Shown: piece after piece, positions 6,502-51,699 of the stretch
Position numbering within the stretch: the first letter of the stretch is position 1
How the letters are laid out: each line of letters opens with the position of its first letter
NCBI RefSeq assembly: GCF_000514775.1
Contig: NZ_AZWO01000011.1
Location: 1 to 64,000 of the forward strand
Direction of reading: 5' to 3'
Source of the DNA: Salinispora pacifica CNR114
Lineage (GTDB): Bacteria; Actinomycetota; Actinomycetes; Mycobacteriales; Micromonosporaceae
Length of the DNA stretch: 64,000 nt
Notes under the pieces: model-generated
Database searches by the model: none
What the model was told of the DNA's origin: nothing
Seen by the model: the letters and a program-made list of their open reading frames with translations, nothing else
Made by a program: the position numbers and the translations under genes

Positions 6502-7421
6502 TGCGTCGCCCCCGCCCGATATTCGATACTGTCACTCGTCATCCTCATAAACGCCTCCTCCAGGGAGGTCAACCGAGGACTTAGCTCGTGCACTCGTATG
6601 GACTTTGCGAAGGCCAGGTCTCCGATGTCACTGGCGCTCATTCCTTCCACTGACAACAACCCGTCGGCGTGTTGGGCCACACTCGCGCCGGCCTCGGTCA
6701 ACGCCCCGGTCAGCGCACCGAGGTCAGGTGTCCGTACGGACACTGACGACAACGTGCCGCCACGGGCTGCGAACTGGGCCAGCGTCTCGGCCGCGATCAG
6801 CCGGCCACGTCCCACGACGATCAGGTCGGTCGCGATGTGTTCCATCTCCGACATGAGGTGGCTGGAGACGAACACGGTGCGTCCCTCGGCCGCCAAACCC
6901 TGGAAGAGCCCGCGCACCCACTTCACGCCTTCCGGGTCGAGACCGTTTAGCGGCTCGTCAAACAGCAGCACGGGCGGGTCGCCGAGCAGAGCCGCAGCGA
7001 TGCCCAGTCGCTGCTTCATACCCAGTGAATAGGTCTGCACGCGCCGTTGCGCCACTTCCGCCAGGCCTACCTCCGCCAGCACCTGACGCACCCTGGCCTT
7101 GCCGATGCGATTACTCCGGGCCAACGCGGCGAGGTGGTCGTACGCGGTGCGTCCGCCATGAACAGCATGGGCATCCAGCAGGGTGCCGACGTACCGCAGG
7201 CCGCGGGGATGCGCGGCGAAGGGAAGTCCGCCGATGATGGCAGTGCCGCGCGTAGGTGTGCTCAGTCCTACGAGCATGTTCAGGGTGGTGGTCTTACCCG
7301 CGCCGTTGGGTCCGAGGAAGCCGGTCACCCGTCCGGGCAGCACGGTGAAGGTCAGCTCATCTACGGCTACGGTGCCGCCGTAACGCTTCGTCAACTGTCT
7401 CACTTCGATCACGAGGATCAT
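6498..7421 (-). CDS. ABC transporter ATP-binding protein
   Basis: Drives an ABC-2 exporter. The 307-residue protein has Walker A GPNGAGKTTT (about 36-45), the ABC signature YSLGMKQRLGIA, Walker B VLLFDEPLNGLDPEG and the H-loop VFVSSHLMSEM, followed by a C-terminal extension of about 90 residues typical of the drug/lantibiotic-export subfamily (CcmA/BcrA-like). The gene overlaps the permease by four bases. It is divergent from a DesK-type kinase and NarL-type regulator, a frequent arrangement in which the two-component system controls the exporter. With the permease broken, the ATPase may be orphaned. Confidence 0.93.
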   Translation of the reverse strand: MILVIEVRQLTKRYGGTVAVDELTFTVLPGRVTGFLGPNGAGKTTTLNMLVGLSTPTRGTAIIGGLPFAAHPRGLRYVGTLLDAHAVHGGRTAYDHLAALARSNRIGKARVRQVLAEVGLAEVAQRRVQTYSLGMKQRLGIAAALLGDPPVLLFDEPLNGLDPEGVKWVRGLFQGLAAEGRTVFVSSHLMSEMEHIATDLIVVGRGRLIAAETLAQFAARGGTLSSVSVRTPDLGALTGALTEAGASVAQHADGLLSVEGMSASDIGDLAFAKSIRVHELSPRLTSLEEAFMRMTSDSIEYRAGATQ

Positions 7422-7465
7422 CGTCCTGATCAGAGTGTCTCGGCGCGTCCCACCAACGCTGACAC

Positions 7466-7480
7466 TTTGCGATCCGCAAA
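7466..7480. promoter_or_regulatory. perfect inverted repeat in divergent promoter region, candidate operator
   Basis: TTTGCG-ATC-CGCAAA is a perfect 15-base palindrome located 44 bases from the ABC start and 63 bases from the kinase start. It is unusually AT-containing for this region. Its placement between the exporter and the two-component genes suggests a binding site for the adjacent response regulator or another dimeric regulator. This is inference from position and symmetry only. Confidence 0.5.
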
Positions 7481-7543
7481 CATCCTCGGTCGTACAACCG
7501 TAGTCGGATGCGTCCGGTCGGTCCCCCGACTAGATTCGAGCCC

Positions 7544-8740
7544 GTGCACGTGGCGCGGAGTCTCCTCCCCACCAGGTTCCGTTCCGACGAGCTCGGATCG
7601 TTTTGGCTCATCAGCCTCCTGATCTTTACCAGCTGGCTGGTAACGGTCTACCCATGGATCTGGTTCCTGACCGAATCGCCCGATCAGCGCTGGTCGTTGC
7701 TCTTCCCACCGGACGTTCTCTCCCCCACCACAAGCCAGGGGATCCTGCTGATAGCCGCAGCGGCCGCGCTGGCCGGAAGCATCCGGTTACGACAGACGCC
7801 CCGGCTCGCCTTCACGCTCCTGCTCGCGAGCATTGCGATACCCACCCTGGTGTGGCGGCAGCCAGAGATCTGGTCGCCGCAGTTCCTTCCGATCGATATC
7901 GCCCTGGTGGTCCTCACGCTCTACTACCCACGCCGGTTGGCACTGGCCGCGGCCGGCCTGGCCCTACTCGTCCTCACCACCTATCTGACGGCTCGATTGA
8001 CGCTCGGCGGCGAGGGCGGCATTCCATCGGAGCCCGGCGCGGCGCTCTCCGTCTGCACGGCCGTACTTCTCGGCACAGTGATCCGCCAGCGACGAACGCA
8101 GGTCGCAGCCGCACGCGAACGGGCGACCGCCGAGGCGATCAGCGCCGAACGGCTTCGCATCGCCCGCGACCTGCACGACATGGTGGCGCACAGCCTGGGG
8201 GTCATCACCCTGCAGGCAGGCGCGGCGGGCCGGGTCATGCGGACGCAACCGGAAGCGGCCCGAGAAGCAATCGGCAGCATCGAAACGGTCGGCCAAGAGA
8301 CTCTTGCGGGTCTGCGGCGGGTCCTCTCCTCCCTGCGTGAGATCGACCCGGAAGGGGTCCCCTCGCTCTCCGCCCTCGACGAGCTCATCTCCACCACTCG
8401 GGCAGCGGGCATAGACATCGAGCTGCGGCAACAGGGCGAGCCACAGGCCCTGCCGATGGAGGTCGACGCCGCCGCCTACCGGATCGTCCAGGAGGCCATC
8501 GCCAACGTGATTCGCCATGCCGGCACCGATGTCTGCCGAATCCTGATCAGCTTCCGGGAGGCGGAGTTGTTCGTCGAGGTGGTCGACGACGGATCCGGTC
8601 GCGGCCAGCGGCCCGGGAGCGGATTAGGGTTGGTCGGCATGCGGGAGCGAGTCGAGATGCTGCACGGCACGATCACCACTGGTCCACGCCCAGAAGGCGG
8701 CTTCCGGGTGGCAGCCCACCTCCCTCTCCCGGTGGCATGA
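7544..8740 (+). CDS. sensor histidine kinase, DesK/NarX-like (HisKA_3)
   Basis: A 398-residue membrane sensor kinase. Residues 15-185 hold several hydrophobic segments and no large extracellular domain, so it probably senses the membrane or a membrane-bound ligand. The HisKA_3 dimerisation domain has the phosphoacceptor in ARDLHDMVAHSLG (His211). The HATPase domain carries the N box EAIANVIRHA and glycine box GSGLGLVGMRERV. GTG at 7544 is chosen over ATG 7508 because the upstream codons do not look like protein. It overlaps the regulator gene by four bases and is divergent from the ABC exporter genes it probably controls. Confidence 0.9.
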   Translation: MHVARSLLPTRFRSDELGSFWLISLLIFTSWLVTVYPWIWFLTESPDQRWSLLFPPDVLSPTTSQGILLIAAAAALAGSIRLRQTPRLAFTLLLASIAIPTLVWRQPEIWSPQFLPIDIALVVLTLYYPRRLALAAAGLALLVLTTYLTARLTLGGEGGIPSEPGAALSVCTAVLLGTVIRQRRTQVAAARERATAEAISAERLRIARDLHDMVAHSLGVITLQAGAAGRVMRTQPEAAREAIGSIETVGQETLAGLRRVLSSLREIDPEGVPSLSALDELISTTRAAGIDIELRQQGEPQALPMEVDAAAYRIVQEAIANVIRHAGTDVCRILISFREAELFVEVVDDGSGRGQRPGSGLGLVGMRERVEMLHGTITTGPRPEGGFRVAAHLPLPVA

Positions 8741-42341: not shown

Positions 42342-43607
42342 CTACGGAGTGCCCAGAGCGACCCCGGCCGGCGTACCGGGATCAGCGGGTACGGCACCGA
42401 CGGTCACCGGAAGCGTCTCGTAGCCACGCAGGGTCAGCCGGTGCCGCCGAGTGGGTTCGCCGGCCAGCGCGAGCTCGGGCAGCCGGCGCAGCAACAGTGG
42501 AAAGGCGACCTGGGCCTCCAGCCGGGCCAGCCCGGCGCCGAGGCAGTAGTGCGCGCCGGCGCCGAAGGACAGCGGGGGCGACTGGGCCCGCCGCGGGTCG
42601 AAGCGAGCCGGATCAGTAAAACGCGCCGGGTCGCGGTTGGCCGCGCCGAGCAGAACCAGCAGCCAACTCCCCGCGGGCAGCTCAACCCCGGCGAGGGATA
42701 CCGACTCGCGGACCGTACGGCTGGTCAACTGCACGGGGGAGTCGTACCGCAGAAACTCCTCCACGTAGCCGGGTGCGAGCTCGGGCTGACCGCGCAGGGC
42801 AGTCGCCGAGTCGGGGTGGGTCAGGAGCACGACCAGCCCGTTGCCGAGCAGGTTCGTGGTGGTCTCGAAGCCCGCGACCAACAGCAACACGAGGTTGGCC
42901 AACAGCTCCTCGCCGGACAGCCGGTCACCGTCGGCGTCGTGCGCCTGCACCAGGGCGGTGGTCAGGTCGTCGGCCGGGGCTCGGCGGCGCTGGGCGATCA
43001 GCTCGGTGAAGTAGTCACGCAGCTCACTGGCGCCGGCGTCGGCGATGGCCAACTCCTGCGGGGTGATCTCCGGCTCCAGGACACCGGTCAGATCACTGGC
43101 CCAGTGCCGAAACCGAGCCCAGTCGGCCGCCGGCACCCCGAGCAGGGCGCAGATCACCGTGACCGGCAACGGGTAGGCAAAGCTACCCATGAAATCCACC
43201 GCAGCACCGCCCCGACCGGCCCGGATCATCTCGTCGACCAGGCCGTCGGCCTGGGCGGCCACCACCTCGCGGAGGGCGGCGACCCGGCGCGGAGTGAACA
43301 CGCCCGCGGCCAGGCGGCGCATGCGGCTGTGGTCCGGTGGATTGGCCCGGATCATCGACCGGGAGATCGAGATCATCGCTGGGCTGTCCTGCCAATGCGG
43401 GAAGACACCGTCGCGTTCTTCGTCGTCCATCACCTCAAACCGAGGGTTCCGCAACACCGTGTCGGCCTCGGTGTACCCGGTGACCACGAAGAAACCGGCC
43501 GCCGTCGAAACCACCGGTCCGTGCGCGCGCAGCCGCTCGTACGTGGGATAGGGGTCGAGTCGGCCCGGCGGAGATGTCAGCAGTGCGACCGCCTCAGATG
43601 CATCCAT
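42342..43607 (-). CDS. cytochrome P450
   Basis: A soluble class I bacterial P450 of 421 residues. It has the oxygen-activating I-helix AGFETTTN, K-helix E-x-x-R in EEFLRY and heme-ligand loop FGAGAHYCLGAG (Cys355). No ferredoxin or reductase gene is nearby, so electrons must come from elsewhere. The substrate is unknown, and no biosynthetic cluster surrounds it. It is upstream of def on the same strand, with only 47 bases between them. Confidence 0.95.
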   Translation of the reverse strand: MDASEAVALLTSPPGRLDPYPTYERLRAHGPVVSTAAGFFVVTGYTEADTVLRNPRFEVMDDEERDGVFPHWQDSPAMISISRSMIRANPPDHSRMRRLAAGVFTPRRVAALREVVAAQADGLVDEMIRAGRGGAAVDFMGSFAYPLPVTVICALLGVPAADWARFRHWASDLTGVLEPEITPQELAIADAGASELRDYFTELIAQRRRAPADDLTTALVQAHDADGDRLSGEELLANLVLLLVAGFETTTNLLGNGLVVLLTHPDSATALRGQPELAPGYVEEFLRYDSPVQLTSRTVRESVSLAGVELPAGSWLLVLLGAANRDPARFTDPARFDPRRAQSPPLSFGAGAHYCLGAGLARLEAQVAFPLLLRRLPELALAGEPTRRHRLTLRGYETLPVTVGAVPADPGTPAGVALGTP

Positions 43608-43764: not shown

Positions 43765-44748
43765 TCAGGCGCCGACGCCGGGTTCCCCCGCCAAGACCGT
43801 ACCGCCGCCCAACAGAGCCGGTTCGGGCAGCGGCAGATCGATGCCATGCGCGGCCGACCAGTCGTGGATCATGCTGGGCCGGACCTGGGCGGCGAAGTAG
43901 TCGATCGCGCTCATCCCACCGACGACGGGCTCGTCAACCTCGGCGGCGAGCCGGGCGGGCACCAGCTGGCACCCGTCCCGCAACGCGGCACTGAGTCGAC
44001 GGTGCCCGTCCACAACGAAGAAGTGCTCCCCCGTGTAACCAATCCGCAGCGGCTCCAGCGGCTCGTCGCCAGCTGCGGCGACATCGTCGGCGGGTGCGGC
44101 GTCCCACCGGCCGCGGAGGGTGACGATGTCCTCGGTCGGGTACACCCGGGCCGGGTCGAGCAGCAGCAACGGCGGAGCCTCCCGCAGCACCTCGGGGCAG
44201 AGCCGCCCTTCGTACGCGGCGACGATGTGCTCGATCACCTCCGCGGCGCCGGCCCGGGTGGTGTCACAGATCAGGTCGTAGTTGCGCAGCTGGGCCTTGT
44301 CCACGCCATAGCGGATGATGAACCGGTTCCGCTCACTCTCGCTGCGCTCCAGGAGCCGGGCCTTCGCCTCCTCCAGGGAGGTGTACTGCTCAGCCGGGCC
44401 GGATGGACGCAGCAGCACTCGCCGGGCAGCCTCCCCGGGCTCGGTGATCATGTGCACCTTGAGCGCGTCGGTGAAGAAGTGCCAGGCGAGCCGCGAGTCC
44501 ATCACCAGGCACTCACCGGAGGCCGCGATATCCCGTTGAAGTTGGTCGACATAGCCGTCCACGGCCTGATCCAGCTCGGCATGCAGGTTGAGCTGGAGGG
44601 CGGTCATCTGCCGCTCCTGGGCCATCTGCCGGTAGAGATCACCCACGCTGACCCGACGCATGCCGAGGCGCTCGGCGATCTCCACGGAGACGGTGCTCTT
44701 GCCACTGCCGAGGTCGCCGTTGAAGACAATCGATTGAGGAACGATCAC
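43765..44748 (-). CDS. cytidylate kinase-like P-loop domain fused to ParB-like domain
   Basis: A 327-residue protein. Residues 5-185 are a nucleoside-monophosphate-kinase-like P-loop domain: Walker A NGDLGSGKSTV (Lys17), VMDSRLAWHFF near 82-92, and an arginine-rich lid-like helix (ARLLERSESERNRFIIRYGV). Residues about 195-265 resemble the ParB/sulfiredoxin-like fold, with LDPARVYPTEDI, then HFFVVDGHRRLSAALRDG (247-255 core), like the ParB GERR helix. The two halves suggest a CTP/ATP-dependent kinase with a recognition module. Substrate and role are unknown. It stands alone between P450 and priA. Confidence 0.7.
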   Translation of the reverse strand: MIVPQSIVFNGDLGSGKSTVSVEIAERLGMRRVSVGDLYRQMAQERQMTALQLNLHAELDQAVDGYVDQLQRDIAASGECLVMDSRLAWHFFTDALKVHMITEPGEAARRVLLRPSGPAEQYTSLEEAKARLLERSESERNRFIIRYGVDKAQLRNYDLICDTTRAGAAEVIEHIVAAYEGRLCPEVLREAPPLLLLDPARVYPTEDIVTLRGRWDAAPADDVAAAGDEPLEPLRIGYTGEHFFVVDGHRRLSAALRDGCQLVPARLAAEVDEPVVGGMSAIDYFAAQVRPSMIHDWSAAHGIDLPLPEPALLGGGTVLAGEPGVGA

Positions 44749-45004: not shown

Positions 45005-46927
45005 TCAGAAGAGGGTCAGCGGATCGATCTGGAGCCGGAGTGGATCAGCAGCCTTACGGGCGGTGCGCACCCCGGCCGCCGAGTGCAGGGCGGCGGCCAG
45101 GGCCGCGGCCCGGGCACGGGGAACCCGGACCAGCATCCGTTCCCGGTCGCCGTCGGCGGGCACCGGCCCCAACAACTCCGCCTCCACCGGTAGCCGGGAC
45201 TCGTCGAGCAGCTCGGCGACGGCGGCCGGCGGCCCGGTGACGCTCGCCATCCGCACCGCCGGTGGAAAGCCGAGCTCCCGGCGTTCGGCGAGTTCGCGGG
45301 CCGCGAACCAGCCAGCGTCCCAGCGGAGCAGTGCCTGCACCGGGACGAGCGCACCGTCGGCGACCACCACCACCCGACCGCCGTCCGACCCGGGGCGGGC
45401 CAGGGCGGCGGCGGCGAGCCAACGCCGCAGCGCCTCCTCCCCCGCCCGCAGATCGGCCCGGGTCAGCAGAGCCCACGAGTCCAGCAGCAGCACCGCCCCG
45501 TAACCACCATCGGCTACCGGCTCGGCACCCGGGGTGGTGATGACCAGCCCGGCGCCACCGGGGACGGTCGCGAGGACCTCCTCCCGCCCGGAGGTGCGCA
45601 CCGGCACACCGGGGAAGGCCCGGCCCAGCTCCTCGGCCGTCCGTCGGGCGCCGGTGACCGAGGCGCGTAGCCGCCGTCCCTGGCACTCCGGGCAGGCGTA
45701 CGCGGCGGCGACGCGGGCACACCAGCGGCAGACCGGCGCGCCCCGCGCCGAGGGAAGCGCGAGCGGCCCGGCGCAGTGCGGGCAGCGCGCCGGAGCCCGG
45801 CAGGTGGCGCACGCCACCGCCGGCAGGTAGCCGCGACGGGGCACCTGGACGAGGACCGGCGCGTCGGCGGAGAGGGCAGCGCGCGCCACGGTCCAGGCCA
45901 GGCTGGGCAGCCGGGCGGTAGCCGCACCCGGGTCCCGGGCCAGCTGGGGGTCGTCGCCGGTGGGGGCGATCGCCGGCATCCGCGCCCGGACGGCGGCGCG
46001 GGCAGCCGTGACCTCGCGGGCCCACCCGGTCTCCACGAGCAGCTGCGCCTCGGCGGTTCGGGCATAACCGCCGATCAGGGCAGCGGTGCCAGCCAGCTGG
46101 GCGCGGGTCAGCAACACCTCGCGGGCGTGCGGGTAGGGGGCACGGGGCTCGGCGTGCAGGTCGTCACCGTCATCCCAGATGGCGACGAGGCCGAGTCGGG
46201 GCACCGGCGCGAACATGGCGGCCCGGGTGCCGATCACCACCGGCACCTGGCCCCGCCGGGCGGCGAGGAAGGCCCGATACCGGCGGGCCGGACCGAGCGC
46301 GGCGGTCAGTTGGACGTGCCGGCCGGGGCCGAGCACGGCGGTCAGCGCCGAGTCGAGCCGGTCAAGGTCCCGGGCGTCGGCGACGACCACGACCGCGCTC
46401 CGACCACCGGCGACGGTCGCCGCGACCGCCTCGGCGTAACGGGTGGGCCACTCCTCCCCCGGCAGCGCAGACCAGACCGCGCGGGGGGCACGGCCGTCGA
46501 CGAGGGCTCGCAGGAGGGCGGGGCCAGCCGGGTAGCCCGACCAACCAATCGGATCAACCGGCCCGGTTCCCGCATCCGGCACGGGCGGACCGGCCGCGGG
46601 AGGCGGTTGCGGCTCCTTCTCGACCCGGGCGTGCCGGGGCGGAACAGCGAGGCGAAGCACGTCGGCGAGGCTGCCGGCGTACCGGTCGGCGACGGCGCGG
46701 GCCAGGCGGGCGATCTCCGGAGCGAGGGCCGGCTCCGGGGAGACGACCTTCTCCAGGTACGCGAGCCGGGGGTGGGCGGATTCGCTCACCCGCTCCAACA
46801 GCCAGCCGTTGACGAGCTGACCGGCGAAGCGGACCTTCACCCGGGTGCCGGGAGCAGCGTCGCCATCGAGAGCCTCGGGCACCAGGTAGTCGAAGGGCCG
46901 ATCGAGGTGGGCCAGGGGAAGGTCCAC
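45005..46927 (-). CDS. priA: primosomal protein PriA, helicase-degenerate actinobacterial type
   Basis: A replication-restart DNA-binding protein. The 640-residue chain has the PriA N-terminal 3'-DNA-binding domain (DLPLAHLDRPFDYLVPEAL) and the zinc cluster (VACATCRAPARCPHC, then VCRWCARVAAAYACPEC). The usual Walker A is replaced by WSALPGEEWPTRYAEAV and the DEAH box by AIWDDGDDLH, so ATP-driven unwinding is unlikely, as in other actinobacterial PriA. The start is uncertain: family-like residues PVARVCV continue upstream of GTG 46927, but no canonical in-frame start codon exists there. It follows metK. Confidence 0.92.
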   Translation of the reverse strand: MDLPLAHLDRPFDYLVPEALDGDAAPGTRVKVRFAGQLVNGWLLERVSESAHPRLAYLEKVVSPEPALAPEIARLARAVADRYAGSLADVLRLAVPPRHARVEKEPQPPPAAGPPVPDAGTGPVDPIGWSGYPAGPALLRALVDGRAPRAVWSALPGEEWPTRYAEAVAATVAGGRSAVVVVADARDLDRLDSALTAVLGPGRHVQLTAALGPARRYRAFLAARRGQVPVVIGTRAAMFAPVPRLGLVAIWDDGDDLHAEPRAPYPHAREVLLTRAQLAGTAALIGGYARTAEAQLLVETGWAREVTAARAAVRARMPAIAPTGDDPQLARDPGAATARLPSLAWTVARAALSADAPVLVQVPRRGYLPAVACATCRAPARCPHCAGPLALPSARGAPVCRWCARVAAAYACPECQGRRLRASVTGARRTAEELGRAFPGVPVRTSGREEVLATVPGGAGLVITTPGAEPVADGGYGAVLLLDSWALLTRADLRAGEEALRRWLAAAALARPGSDGGRVVVVADGALVPVQALLRWDAGWFAARELAERRELGFPPAVRMASVTGPPAAVAELLDESRLPVEAELLGPVPADGDRERMLVRVPRARAAALAAALHSAAGVRTARKAADPLRLQIDPLTLF

Positions 46928-46986: not shown

Positions 46987-48186
46987 TCAGCCGCCCGCCA
47001 CCGACTTGAGATCAGTGGCGCGATCGGTGCTCTCCCAGGTGAAGTCGGGAAGCTCTCGACCGAAGTGTCCGTACGCCGCGGTCTGCGAGTAGATCGGCCG
47101 CATCAACTTCAGGTCCCGGATGATCGCCGCCGGCCGAAGGTCGAACACCTCCGTCACCGCCTTCTCGATCCGCTCCACCGGCACCGTCTCCGTGCCGAAC
47201 GTCTCCAGGAACAGGCTCACCGGCTGCGCCTTGCCGATGGCGTACGCCACCTGCGCCTCGCACCGCTCCGCCAGCCCGGCCGCCACCACGTTCTTGGCCA
47301 CCCACCGCATCGCGTACGCCGCCGAGCGGTCCACCTTGGACGGGTCCTTGCCGGAGAACGCTCCGCCGCCGTGCCGCGCGTACCCGCCGTAGGTGTCCAC
47401 GATGATCTTCCGACCGGTCAGACCCGCGTCTCCCATCGGGCCACCAACCTCGAACCGGCCCGTCGGATTCACCAGCAGCCGGTAGTCTTCGATGTCCAGC
47501 CCCAGCCCGAGACTCTCCACCTCCGGCGCGATCACGTGCTCCCGGATGTCCGGCGTCAGCAGCGACTCCAGCGACACATCGGCCGCGTGCTGCGACGACA
47601 CCAGCACGGTGTTCAGCCGCACCGGCCGCATTCCCTCGTACTCCACCGTCACCTGCGTCTTACCATCCGGACGCAGGTACGGCACCACACCTTCGCGCCG
47701 CACCTGTGCCAGGCGGCGGGACAGCCGATGCGCCAACGCGATCGGAAGCGGCATCAACTCTGGGGTCTCCGAGCAGGCGAACCCGAACATCATCCCCTGG
47801 TCGCCAGCGCCCTGCGCGTCCAACACGTGCTCGGATGCGCCGGTACGCAGCTCAATCGCGTTGTCGACCCCCTGGGCGATATCTGCCGACTGCGACCCGA
47901 TCGACACACTTACTCCGCAGGACGCCCCGTCGAAACCCTTTCGCGACGAGTCGTAACCAATGTTCAAAATCGTCCGACGCACGATCGACGGGATGTCGGC
48001 GTAGGCCTTCGTGGTTACCTCGCCCGCAACATGCACCTGACCGGTTGTGATCAGCGTCTCCACTGCAACCCGGCTACGCGGGTCCTCTGCCAGCAACGCA
48101 TCGAGGATCCCGTCACTGATCTGGTCAGCAATCTTGTCAGGGTGACCTTCGGTTACCGATTCGGAAGTGAAGAGGCGGCGTGTCAC
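46987..48186 (-). CDS. metK: S-adenosylmethionine synthetase
   Basis: Makes SAM from methionine and ATP. The 399-residue protein has [38 protein letters not shown], and [19 protein letters not shown] with the P-loop-like signature. Length and motifs are standard. It lies between coaBC and priA on the same strand. I saw no SAM riboswitch in the 85-base gap upstream. Confidence 0.98.
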
Positions 48187-48272: not shown

Positions 48273-49484
48273 CTATCCGGGACAGCCGGTCAGCCGGGAG
48301 ACGATGAGGTCCCAGACACCGTCTGCGAGGTCTTCCTTGGACTGCTCGGGCATCCGGCTGACCGATCCGTCCGCGCCGATGACGGTCGCCGCGTTGGTGT
48401 CGGCGCCAAAAACCTGGTCCGGGCCGACCTCGTTGATGACGATGAGGTCCGCCCGCTTACGGGCGAGCTTGGCTCGACCGTTGGCCTCGGCGTCACTGGT
48501 CTCCGCGGCGAAGACCACCAGCACCTGCTCCGGGCGACGACGCTTCCCGAGCTCGGCGGCGATGTCCGGGTTCGCGACGAGCTCAATGGTGGGCGCGCTG
48601 CCGTCGTCCGACTTCTTGATTTTGCCAGTCGCGTACGTCGTCGGCCGGAAATCGGCGGGAGCCGCCGCCAGCACCACCGCGTCCGCGCGGTCGGCAGCCG
48701 TCAGCGTGGCTTCGCGCAGCTCGGCGGTCGTACTGACCCGCACCAGGTCCACGCCGGCCGGATCGGGCAGCGCGACGTTGGCGGAGACCAGGGTGACCCG
48801 GGCTCCTCGCGCCACCGCGGCGCGGGCGAACGCGTACCCCTGCTTGCCGGAGGAGCGATTACCGAGAAACCGGACCGGATCCAGCGGCTCCCGGGTGCCC
48901 CCGGCGGTGACCAGCACGTGCTTCCCGGTGAGGTCCGCCGTCGCGGCGGCGCCGCGAGCGAGAACGCGTCGAGCCACGGCGAAGAGCTCCGCCGGGTCCG
49001 GTAGCCGCCCTTTGCCGGTGTCCGCTCCGGTGAGCCGGCCGACCGCCGGCTCCACGACCCGCACCCCGCGGGAGCGCAGCGTCGCCACGTTGGCCACCGT
49101 CGCCGGATGTTCCCACATCTCGGTATGCATCGCCGGCGCCAGGACCACCGGGCAGCGAGCCGTCAGCAGAGTGTTGGTGAGCAGGTCATCCGCGAGCCCA
49201 TGCGCGGCCCGGGCAAGCAGGTCGGTGGTGGCCGGAGCCACCACGACCAGGTCCGCCTGCTGACCCAACCGCACGTGCGGCACCTCGTGCACGTCGGACC
49301 AGACGTCGTCGGCGACTGGTTGACCGGAGAGCGCCGACCAGGTCGCGGCCCCGACGAAATGGAGCGCCGACGCGGTCGGCACGACCCGGACCTGGTGGCC
49401 GGACTCGGTGAAGAGCCGCAGCAACTCGCAGGCCTTGTAGGCGGCGATCCCGCCACCGACCCCGAGGATAATCCGGGGGGACAT
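48273..49484 (-). CDS. coaBC: phosphopantothenoylcysteine decarboxylase/synthetase
   Basis: The 403-residue bifunctional enzyme of coenzyme A synthesis. The N-terminal flavoprotein decarboxylase (1-185) has GVGGGIAAYKACELLRL, VVAPATTDLLARAAHGLADD and VLAPAMHTEMW. The C-terminal synthetase (190-400) has VLVTAGGTREPLDPVRFLGN, VLAAAPADFRP and the K-x-K-K-x-like IKKSDDG. It starts 13 bases after rpoZ, a common actinobacterial order. Confidence 0.97.
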   Translation of the reverse strand: MSPRIILGVGGGIAAYKACELLRLFTESGHQVRVVPTASALHFVGAATWSALSGQPVADDVWSDVHEVPHVRLGQQADLVVVAPATTDLLARAAHGLADDLLTNTLLTARCPVVLAPAMHTEMWEHPATVANVATLRSRGVRVVEPAVGRLTGADTGKGRLPDPAELFAVARRVLARGAAATADLTGKHVLVTAGGTREPLDPVRFLGNRSSGKQGYAFARAAVARGARVTLVSANVALPDPAGVDLVRVSTTAELREATLTAADRADAVVLAAAPADFRPTTYATGKIKKSDDGSAPTIELVANPDIAAELGKRRRPEQVLVVFAAETSDAEANGRAKLARKRADLIVINEVGPDQVFGADTNAATVIGADGSVSRMPEQSKEDLADGVWDLIVSRLTGCPG

Positions 49485-49497
49485 CGCTGGGTACGCG

Positions 49498-49764
49498 TTA
49501 CGGCTGGTCGGTGGGCTCAGCGGTGAGCAGACCCGCGTTGATCTCCCGCATGGCGATCGAGAGCGGCTTCTCCTGCGGGGTCGTCTCGACCAGCGGGCCG
49601 ACGTACTCCAGCAGGCCCTCGCCGAGCTGGCTGTAGTAGGCGTTGACCTGACGGGCCCGCTTGGCGGCGAAGATGACCAGCGCGTACTTCGAGGTGGTCT
49701 TCTCAAGGAGCTCGTCGATCGGCGGGTTGGTGATGCCTTCGGGGTTGGTGGCGATGGATCCCAC
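49498..49764 (-). CDS. rpoZ: RNA polymerase omega subunit
   Basis: An 88-residue omega subunit that helps fold and assemble the beta-prime chain. It has [20 protein letters not shown] and [18 protein letters not shown], the family core. The start is GTG. It is placed between the gmk homologue and coaBC as in most actinobacteria. Confidence 0.97.
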
Positions 49765-49807: not shown

Positions 49808-50341
49808 TCAACCGCGCACGCGCGGTCGCGCCGGAGCTTTGAATGACGAACCGAACAATCCTACCAGCTCGTCCACGACCTGCACGGTCCGGCCATGCAC
49901 GATCGTATGCGCGAAATGCGGCTCGGTGACCGGATCGGCCACGTAGCCGGGTGGGTGCAGCAGAACGAGCTGGGCCGTCGGCAACACGGCCCGCAGCCGC
50001 AGCGCCCCGGCCAGGTCCATCGGGAGCAGAGCCGGCGCCCCAGCGGCCAGTCGGGACCGCAGGGGTTGCCCCGCCGTACCGCGCCGGTATCGGCCGATCT
50101 GGCTCCATTCCAGCAGATCGCCGGCGGCCAGCAGCCGGTCGAACTCGGCCGGGTCGAGGAAGACGCGATCGACCCCGGCCACCTCGCCATCCCGCCGGGG
50201 GCGGGTGGTCACCGGCACCGGCGTCCACACAGTAGGCAGACGCGCCCGGACCAACCCAGCGACACCATCCCGACCGGAACCCGACGGTCCGGTCAGGATG
50301 GTGAGCCGGGCCGCCGGGCGCGCCTCACCATCCGTGCTCAC
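49808..50341 (-). CDS. guanylate kinase homologue, degenerate
   Basis: It occupies the canonical gmk position but is only 177 residues and looks catalytically impaired. The P-loop reads [10 protein letters not shown]: the invariant lysine is Arg24 and the following Ser/Thr is Asp. The GMP-binding part is partly kept ([27 protein letters not shown]), but the tyrosine of GVxY is Arg. The lid segment with catalytic arginines that normally follows the LVxLxPPS strand is missing; the sequence runs from [13 protein letters not shown] directly to the C-terminal helix. It may bind GMP or GTP without turnover. A functional Gmk should exist elsewhere. Confidence 0.8.
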
Positions 50342-50367: not shown

Positions 50368-50685
50368 TCAGTTGGCAGCGAACTCCCCAAGCAGGGCCTT
50401 GCGCTGCTGCTCGCCGAGGCCACGCAGGCGCCGGCTATCGGCGATCTTGAGCTTCTCCATGATCTGGGTCGCCCGGATCTTGCCGATTCCCGGCATCGCC
50501 TGCAGGACAGCGGATACCTTCAGCTTGCCGACGACATCGTCGGACTCGGCCCGCTCGAGAACGGCTCCGAGCGTTGTCTTGCCCTGCTTGAGCTGCTCCT
50601 TCAGCTCAGCACGGGCCTTGCGGATCTCCGCGGCCTTCTCCAGCGCTGCTGCGCGCTGCTCAGGGGTCAGTGACGGGAGCGGCAC
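50368..50685 (-). CDS. mihF: actinobacterial integration host factor
   Basis: A 105-residue nucleoid-associated protein of the mIHF/sIHF type, unrelated to E. coli IHF. It has a long basic N-terminal helix (RAAALEKAAEIRKARAELKE) and the helix-two-turn-helix DNA-binding region VSAVLQAMPGIGKIRATQIM. It is abundant and shapes DNA in actinobacteria. The start is GTG. It lies between pyrF and the gmk homologue, with 177 bases upstream that could hold its own promoter. Confidence 0.97.
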   Translation of the reverse strand: MPLPSLTPEQRAAALEKAAEIRKARAELKEQLKQGKTTLGAVLERAESDDVVGKLKVSAVLQAMPGIGKIRATQIMEKLKIADSRRLRGLGEQQRKALLGEFAAN

Positions 50686-50862: not shown

Positions 50863-51699
50863 CTACGAACCGGTCAAAGCCGCTCGACAGTCAGCCAGGA
50901 CCCGGTCCGCGGCGTCCCGAAGAGCCGCCGGATCGGGCCCCGCGGCCAGCACCTCACGGGAGGATGTGGGCAGTACGGCGGACAGGCTGGAGCCGAAGAC
51001 CACCCGGAGGTCAGCGGCGCTGGCGCCCTGCGCTCCCAGCCCCGGAGCGAGCAGCGGACCGTTGACCGCGGTGAGATCGTGACCCGTCTCACCGATGGTC
51101 GCCCCCACCACCAACCCCACGCTGCCCAGTGGTTGCGCACCCGCGTTGAGCTGGGAAATCTCGTCGATGACCAGCTGTGCGACGGTCCGCCCGTCGGCGG
51201 TGCGAGCCCGCTGCACCGCGGCGCCCTCGGGATTGGAGGTCAGCGCCAGCACGAAGACTCCGCCACCCTGCGCGGCGGCCAGCTCGAACATCGGGGCGAG
51301 CGCGCCAACCCCGAGATACGGGCTCACCGTCACCGCGTCGACATGCAGTGGGCTCGATGGATCAAGGTACGCGGAGGCGTACGCGGAGACCGTCGAGCCA
51401 ATGTCGCCACGCTTGACGTCAAGGAGGACGAGCGAACCAGCCGCCCGCAACTGTCGGATAGTTGACTCTAGGACCGCCAGGCCCCGAGACCCGAACCGCT
51501 CGAAGAAGGCCGACTGCGGCTTGACCACCGCGACCCGGTCACCCAACGCCTCCACGACCGTGCCCGCGAACCGCTCCAGACCGCGAACATCGTCATCGAG
51601 GCCCCACCGTGCGAGCAGACCCGGGTGCGGGTCGATGCCCACGCAGAGCGGACCCCGCTCGCCAACCGCCCGGTGCAACCGGGCGCCGAAGCTCTCCAT
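50863..51699 (-). CDS. pyrF: orotidine 5'-phosphate decarboxylase
   Basis: Last step of UMP synthesis. The 278-residue protein belongs to the long actinobacterial PyrF type: LCVGIDPHPGLLARWG, VVKPQSAFFERFG, LLDVKRGDIGST (the catalytic D-x-K-x-x-D) and LAPGLGAQGASAADL. ATG 51699 has GGAGG nine bases upstream. It is separated from bioA by 187 bases of repetitive sequence. Confidence 0.97.
   Translation of the reverse strand: MESFGARLHRAVGERGPLCVGIDPHPGLLARWGLDDDVRGLERFAGTVVEALGDRVAVVKPQSAFFERFGSRGLAVLESTIRQLRAAGSLVLLDVKRGDIGSTVSAYASAYLDPSSPLHVDAVTVSPYLGVGALAPMFELAAAQGGGVFVLALTSNPEGAAVQRARTADGRTVAQLVIDEISQLNAGAQPLGSVGLVVGATIGETGHDLTAVNGPLLAPGLGAQGASAADLRVVFGSSLSAVLPTSSREVLAAGPDPAALRDAADRVLADCRAALTGS

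Follow-up and report, generated by a model that had tools for sequence, protein, structure and literature searches.

A decayed guanylate kinase gene in Salinispora and a CMP-kinase-like protein as its probable replacement

Guanylate kinase (Gmk; PF00625, TIGR03263) is the closest described relative of gmk*, a gene at positions 49808-50341 of a 64,000-nucleotide stretch of Salinispora pacifica CNR114 (assembly GCF_000514775.1, contig NZ_AZWO01000011.1, positions 1 to 64,000; hereafter the window). gmk* is the ortholog at the same locus, but it lacks the P-loop Lys, the lid and several GMP contacts. A second gene of the window, at 43765-44748, encodes a kinase that we propose performs the Gmk reaction, although this protein has no PF00625 match. 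In its kinase domain and structural neighbours it resembles the archaeal-type (d)CMP kinases (TIGR02173, Cytidylate_kin2/AAA_18), from which it differs by a C-terminal domain of ~130 residues, a sub-cut-off score and a substrate that is presumably GMP; its host also has a canonical Cmk. It shares a kinase profile with the viperin-associated kinases (PDLC02905; VakA, PDLC02911), but is neither fused to nor beside a viperin. The polyphosphate kinases of the PPK2 family, whose class II and III members can phosphorylate nucleoside monophosphates including GMP, are a different family that is absent from this genome.

Comparison of these genes across the Micromonosporaceae points to a probable replacement of Gmk by the kinase at 43765-44748 as the GMP kinase, which would make this a case of non-orthologous displacement of an essential enzyme. 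Three things are observed directly: gmk* is degenerate, it is the genome's sole match to the Gmk family, and across the family Gmk loss and the kinase occur together, with losses repeated in separate lineages and with the kinase inserted at different sites. The features on which the argument turns are:

49808-50341, minus strand: gmk*, a lidless, P-loop-broken guanylate kinase remnant of 177 residues with a GTG start (open reading frame (ORF), profile matches, alignment)
50368-50685, minus strand: mihF (actinobacterial IHF), upstream flank of gmk* (NCBIfam actino_IHF, 6e-42)
49498-49764, minus strand: rpoZ (RNA polymerase omega), downstream flank of gmk* (TIGR00690, 3e-22)
43765-44748, minus strand: proposed replacement GMP kinase, 327 residues, with an archaeal-type CMP-kinase-like P-loop domain (~1-180) and a C-terminal domain (~190-310)
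45005-46927, minus strand: priA, flanked by metK and the gene of the proposed GMP kinase

The actino_IHF and TIGR00690 matches bear out the position given in a preliminary description of this DNA, which had placed an apparently dead Gmk between mihF and rpoZ. The gmk* product matches the Pfam Guanylate_kin profile (PF00625) at 46.6 bits, above the cut-off of 25.2, over profile positions 2-123 of 182, and the Gmk equivalog TIGR03263 at 82.5 bits, short of the cut-off of 160.45. Its AlphaFold2 (AF2) model shows a confident lidless core (predicted local distance difference test score (pLDDT) 85). Alignment with intact Micromonosporaceae homologs, 30/30 of which keep the P-loop Lys, places Arg24 at that position and traces the missing lid to an internal deletion of ~25 codons, beyond which the post-lid segment and tail can still be aligned; both defects had been read correctly from the sequence. 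The derived changes are lid loss and the substitutions K24R, S35P, Y51R and Y79R. R39, R42, E70, T81 and D101 are kept, so that parts of the GMP pocket do remain, as had been stated, but the set of GMP contacts as a whole is incomplete (we take S35, R39, R42, Y51, E70, Y79, T81 and D101 to be these contacts, with roles and numbering from the yeast and E. coli enzymes). The Asp after the P-loop Lys position, also cited as a sign of death, is present but ancestral, as intact family Gmks read GKD(S) in 19/30 and GKG(S) in 11/30 cases. None of these 30 has Ser or Thr directly after the Lys, and all have a Ser one place later, an unusual Walker A. The Gmk at 49808-50341 is very likely dead.

No second Gmk-family match besides gmk* was found in a PF00625 search of the whole genome. 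The preliminary description had held that a genome with no other Gmk would refute a dead gmk*. By PF00625 there is literally no other; yet this does not refute the death of gmk*, since the kinase proposed in its place is a member of a different family of P-loop kinases.

We then took a census of 354 Micromonosporaceae genomes (an earlier sample held 150) for PF00625 and the kinase. Intact Gmk copies score E 3e-38 or better; among damaged copies in one piece, that of G085 comes highest, with 4e-32. Within g1, the genus that holds Micromonospora and, judged by similarity, the window, intact Gmk was found in 0/160 genomes: 156 have a degenerate match (best E 3e-17) and four have none. As all 160 genomes lack an intact copy and many of them are single contigs, gmk* reflects neither chance nor assembly error. 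Outside g1, 27 more family genomes lack intact Gmk: seven of Plantactinospora (g32), six of Asanoa (g18), three of g10, seven of Dactylosporangium (g44), and G020, G036, G023 and G085. The seven Dactylosporangium genomes have no PF00625 match at all; in six of their loci rpoZ comes next after mihF and no gmk match lies between the two, and the seventh stretch ends earlier. In a comparison of 80 named loci the gmk* ORF was found in 62. The lid is absent from 62/62 of these degenerate loci and from the window, and the P-loop Lys is lost in 59/62 (R 52, G 3, V 3, T 1); the three that keep it are the three Plantactinospora loci. To the question whether R24 and lid loss are fixed across the family, the answer is therefore divided: lid loss is fixed in the loci examined, and R24 is common but unfixed.

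Beyond the family, PF00625 was matched in 386 of 389 actinomycete genomes (exceptions G154, G186 and G350), none of which has a single-piece degenerate Gmk; G218, G296 and G425 have a weak best match plus a second match, as if split. Within the family, G057 has gmk in two overlapping pieces and frames (L050, 1472-2076) in a single-contig genome from which the kinase is absent, an unexplained case that is either a sequencing error or a true puzzle. In G063, which is 77% complete and has mihF near a contig end, neither gmk nor the kinase was found.

The preliminary description had argued that another gene must supply Gmk activity. The data uphold this, with a strong candidate 5 kb away, within the window. 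It came to light in a scan of 18 genomes with AAA_33 (PF13671), which gave a weak match at 44500-44730 (minus strand) and counterparts near gmk in G020, G036 and G082. The corresponding ORF lies directly after priA, ~5 kb from gmk*. Its product matches PF13189 at 39.5 bits (cut-off 28) and PF13238 at 60.2 bits (cut-off 29.4), both of which match 26/26 aligned kinases, and the archaeal CMP kinase model TIGR02173 at 80.4 bits, below the equivalog cut-off of 102.1. The motif NGDLGSGK and several arginines are invariant in the 26 aligned kinases. The AF2 model (pLDDT 82.8) has 3hdt (Z 14.7) and 3fdi (Z 14.5) as best structural neighbours, followed by CMP kinases at Z ~12-13; sequence searches of the PDB gave partial, mostly P-loop-level matches, and PHROGs gave weak kinase matches. 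With the kinase of Salinispora vitiensis the window kinase shares 96% identity.

A second domain, made up of the C-terminal ~130 residues, contains a motif, VDGHRRLSAAL, that looks ParB-like by eye; the ParB_N profile matched this domain in 1/26 members, weakly (E 0.025), and an actinomycete protein sharing the ParB-like motif had no NCBIfam match. Among the genomes read, the kinase has 305-332 residues where Gmk is lacking and 230-303 in ten with intact Gmk, because the C-terminal domain is shorter in the latter. A P450-like ORF of 421 residues, named by eye, adjoins the kinase gene on the same strand (42342-43607, minus strand).

The distribution of the kinase follows the loss of Gmk. After G057 (split gmk) and G063 (77% complete) had been set aside, the kinase was found in 185/187 census genomes without intact Gmk and in 23/165 with it (Fisher p 1e-70, shared ancestry ignored). 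Both exceptions break off where the kinase would be expected: in G638 (800 contigs) priA runs off the contig start on the expected kinase side, and in G670 (87% complete) a 5,321-base contig ends at 111-codon depth of priA, again on that side. Two genera show the switch in single genomes. In g11, Gmk is damaged in a single genome of 22 (G085), which is also the only one of them with the kinase; in g23 the same holds for one of three (G023). The 43765-44748 kinase thus shows phylogenetic complementarity with Gmk loss, as would be expected of a GMP kinase that replaced Gmk. G027, with intact Gmk, holds a kinase remnant of 34 residues. In G136, which also has an intact Gmk, ~320 bases separate the kinase gene from a weak second PF00625 match (29 bits, C12:340286-340576).

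In a class-wide sample of 393 actinomycete genomes, strong kinase matches occurred only in its four g1 genomes. A wide actinomycete distribution was rejected, as the other 49 matches are weak; of these, 26 loci were looked at, and such hits as could be read there are Cmk-, Adk- or ParB-motif-like. Full-length two-domain homologs occur on Rhodococcus and Parabacteroides plasmids. A viral source was also rejected, with no match in phages and none confirmed in viral contigs.

Shared ancestry was taken into account with a species tree of 43 genomes built from six neighbouring proteins (FastTree, midpoint root), among them those of dfp/coaBC and pyrF; pyrD was usable in 37. The further genes of the neighbourhood are:

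46987-48186, minus strand: metK
48273-49484, minus strand: dfp/coaBC, start read by eye; used in the species tree
50863-51699, minus strand: pyrF (51723 is the start of the ORF as listed); species-tree gene and dN/dS comparator

Six Gmk losses fall on this tree, all of them kinase-positive: g1; the g32/g10/g20/g36 clade; Asanoa (G088); G023; Dactylosporangium; and G085. Intact, kinase-negative relatives stand beside four of them, in the pairs G099-G085 (support 1.0), G054-G023 (1.0), G047-G088 (0.87) and G001-g1 (0.91). Counting each loss once, 6/6 losses are kinase-positive among 35 units of which 15 are kinase-positive (hypergeometric P 0.003). This test is conservative, since the tree sample deliberately took in intact kinase-positive genomes (9 of 23, from 6 of 7 genera).

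The kinase tree groups the kinases of G023, Asanoa and Dactylosporangium (0.84), unlike the species tree, and that of G085 falls, with weak support (0.48), among those from genomes in which Gmk is intact; this departure suggests that the kinase spread horizontally. Its sites differ: after priA, between pyrD and pyrF in G023, and far away in Dactylosporangium, with kinase-gmk distances of ~12 kb in G085 and of 16-21 kb in Asanoa. A hitch-hiking second gene is unlikely, since in the 18 loci compared the kinase is the only family to recur in more than two. In L142, from G019, where an intact Gmk and the kinase coexist, a TetM/EF-G-like GTPase ORF, named by eye from its start, lies near the kinase gene (6562-8376, minus strand).

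These data are consistent with the following course of events. The P-loop Lys, the lid and several GMP contacts have gone from the ancestral gmk, and GMP phosphorylation very probably with them; conversion of GMP to GDP would have been taken over by the 327-residue archaeal-CMP-kinase-like protein encoded just downstream of priA. The substrate of this kinase would be GMP, it would be essential in its host, and its acquisition would have freed gmk to decay. The gmk* ORF would still be there because it decays slowly, and rpoZ promoter sequence within the tail may have helped to keep it.

The preliminary description had proposed another fate for gmk*, as a GMP/GTP- or (p)ppGpp-binding regulator. 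Repurposing as a nucleotide-binding regulator or partner draws on the PF00625 match kept in 156/160 g1 genomes, on the conservation of TTR, LLEW and D101, and on a ratio of nonsynonymous to synonymous substitution (dN/dS) of ~0.47, below 1. We computed these ratios as Nei-Gojobori (NG86) medians over up to 400 random pairs from Micromonospora and Salinispora. Against 0.47 for gmk* (58 sequences) stand 0.26 for the kinase (71), 0.16 for pyrF (57), and 0.08 for metK, 0.04 for mihF and 0.00 for rpoZ (58 each), so gmk* is under much weaker constraint than all five comparison genes. Three of its GMP contacts are replaced, and the gene is broken or gone in some relatives. Of the four g1 genomes without a PF00625 match, the two inspected, G610 and G713, have only gmk fragments left; the others are G663 and G704, the latter in 890 contigs.

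Moreover, conservation of the tail may reflect rpoZ promoter DNA rather than protein. By eye, the following feature stands out:

49858-49863, minus strand: TAGGAT in the gmk* 3' end, a possible rpoZ -10 element

The retained 3' end carries GGTAGGATTG, which is -10-like for rpoZ; GGTAAGGTTG, in a Dactylosporangium locus from which gmk is gone (L059), was likened to an rpoZ -10 element, and a similar sequence stands before rpoZ in G610 and G713, where gmk is broken, all as read by eye. A sigma-70 promoter scan of the gmk* tail found nothing. Slow decay with some residual constraint fits these patterns better than a conserved regulator, which we consider unlikely, though gmk* may retain a remnant nucleotide-binding function in most species. 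The dead Gmk and the substitute gene of the preliminary description are thus supported, and its regulator is not.

Several observations weigh against displacement of Gmk by this kinase. The nearest named models of the kinase are CMP kinases (TIGR02173, below cut-off), and its substrate is not readable from sequence. The kinase also occurs alongside an intact Gmk in 23 genomes, of which 15 belong to genus g29, and must therefore have some use besides replacement. G057, conversely, has a split gmk yet no kinase. For two of the six losses the decisive grouping has a support of 0.87 or 0.91; as these values are moderate, four to six independent losses would be the safe range. Finally, the families profiled for rival genes were PF00625, PF03976, PF13671 (18 genomes) and PF02224.

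With these four families profiled and six other AAA_33 matches in the genome, the GMP kinase could be some other gene with the same distribution over the lineages, and the Cmk-like kinase a mere fellow traveller. We consider this quite unlikely, as the single-genome switches in G085 and G023 coincide with the kinase, at different sites and with no neighbours shared beyond two loci. PPK2 (PF03976) was rejected as the replacement: it is present in 23/31 genomes, and is absent from this genome (G000), G032, G120 and G036, and also from four intact-Gmk genomes. Loss of the canonical Cmk as the reason for the kinase was likewise rejected, since Cmk is full-length in 30/30 genomes (19 without and 11 with intact Gmk).

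It is very improbable that the lidless Gmk is still a slow GMP kinase and that the second kinase does something else. The gmk* ORF does cover more than 80% of the window protein in 62/62 named loci where it was found, its AF2 core is confidently folded (pLDDT 85), and R39, E70 and D101 are kept. However, the P-loop Lys is lost in 59/62 loci, the lid is absent from all of them, and S35, Y51 and Y79 are mostly replaced; as G610 and G713 hold nothing but fragments and no gmk was found in Dactylosporangium, gmk* cannot be the essential activity there, and the distribution of the kinase would become a coincidence. That a normal Gmk lies on sequence missing from the assembly, which is in 99 contigs, has a negligible chance, as single-contig relatives such as G003, G082, G010, G032 and G064 show the same absence.

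The 43765-44748 kinase has a possible connection to antiviral gene neighbourhoods. The kinase domain matches the PADLOC pVip-kinase model PDLC02905 (8e-22 in the window, residues 6-180 on model positions 4-173 of 474), which matches 26/26 of the kinases (best 2e-27). Because TIGR02173 is matched about as well, the viperin connection stays a lead, and the kinase part of PDLC02905 probably matches archaeal-type Cmk relatives in general. No radical SAM match was found in the 327-residue kinase, and its neighbours are priA and the P450-like ORF, with no viperin directly beside it. On a Parabacteroides plasmid (L231, 8998-12622), a two-domain kinase, a radical SAM protein, a dehydrogenase and hpt stand in a run that could be a modified-nucleoside pathway. 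The radical SAM gene directly after the kinase homolog has a partial pVip match (1.9e-18); we downgraded it as viperin evidence, since relatives occur in 284 plasmid records.

Guanosine-analog prodrugs have been described as activated by Gmk, with E. coli resistance mapping to gsk and gmk (PMC9239236), and bacterial viperins as able to make 3'-deoxy-3',4'-didehydro-GTP (ddhGTP; PMC10732462). A doubtful but conceivable history is that a mobile kinase from nucleotide-analog or antiviral (viperin-type) neighbourhoods spread through the Micromonosporaceae. It would at first have worked alongside Gmk, as a bypass when guanine nucleotides came under attack (from Gmk-activated guanosine-analog antibiotics, phages or inhibition by alarmones), and in about six lineages it would later have been left as the only, essential GMP kinase, its C-terminal domain providing a new regulatory input.

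No prior report of this replacement was found in the open-licence full-text literature, among the matches listed. Gmk is treated as near-universal and essential, yet the genera Salinispora, Micromonospora, Plantactinospora, Asanoa and Dactylosporangium appear to live without it. If the displacement is true, there would be a second family of bacterial GMP kinases, nearest to CMP kinases in profile libraries. Metabolic models and annotations of these antibiotic producers would have to be corrected, as their 'guanylate kinase' would fail assays. The approximately six replacements would form a repeated natural experiment in the displacement of an essential gene, and resistance to Gmk-activated guanosine analogs would become testable in these bacteria.
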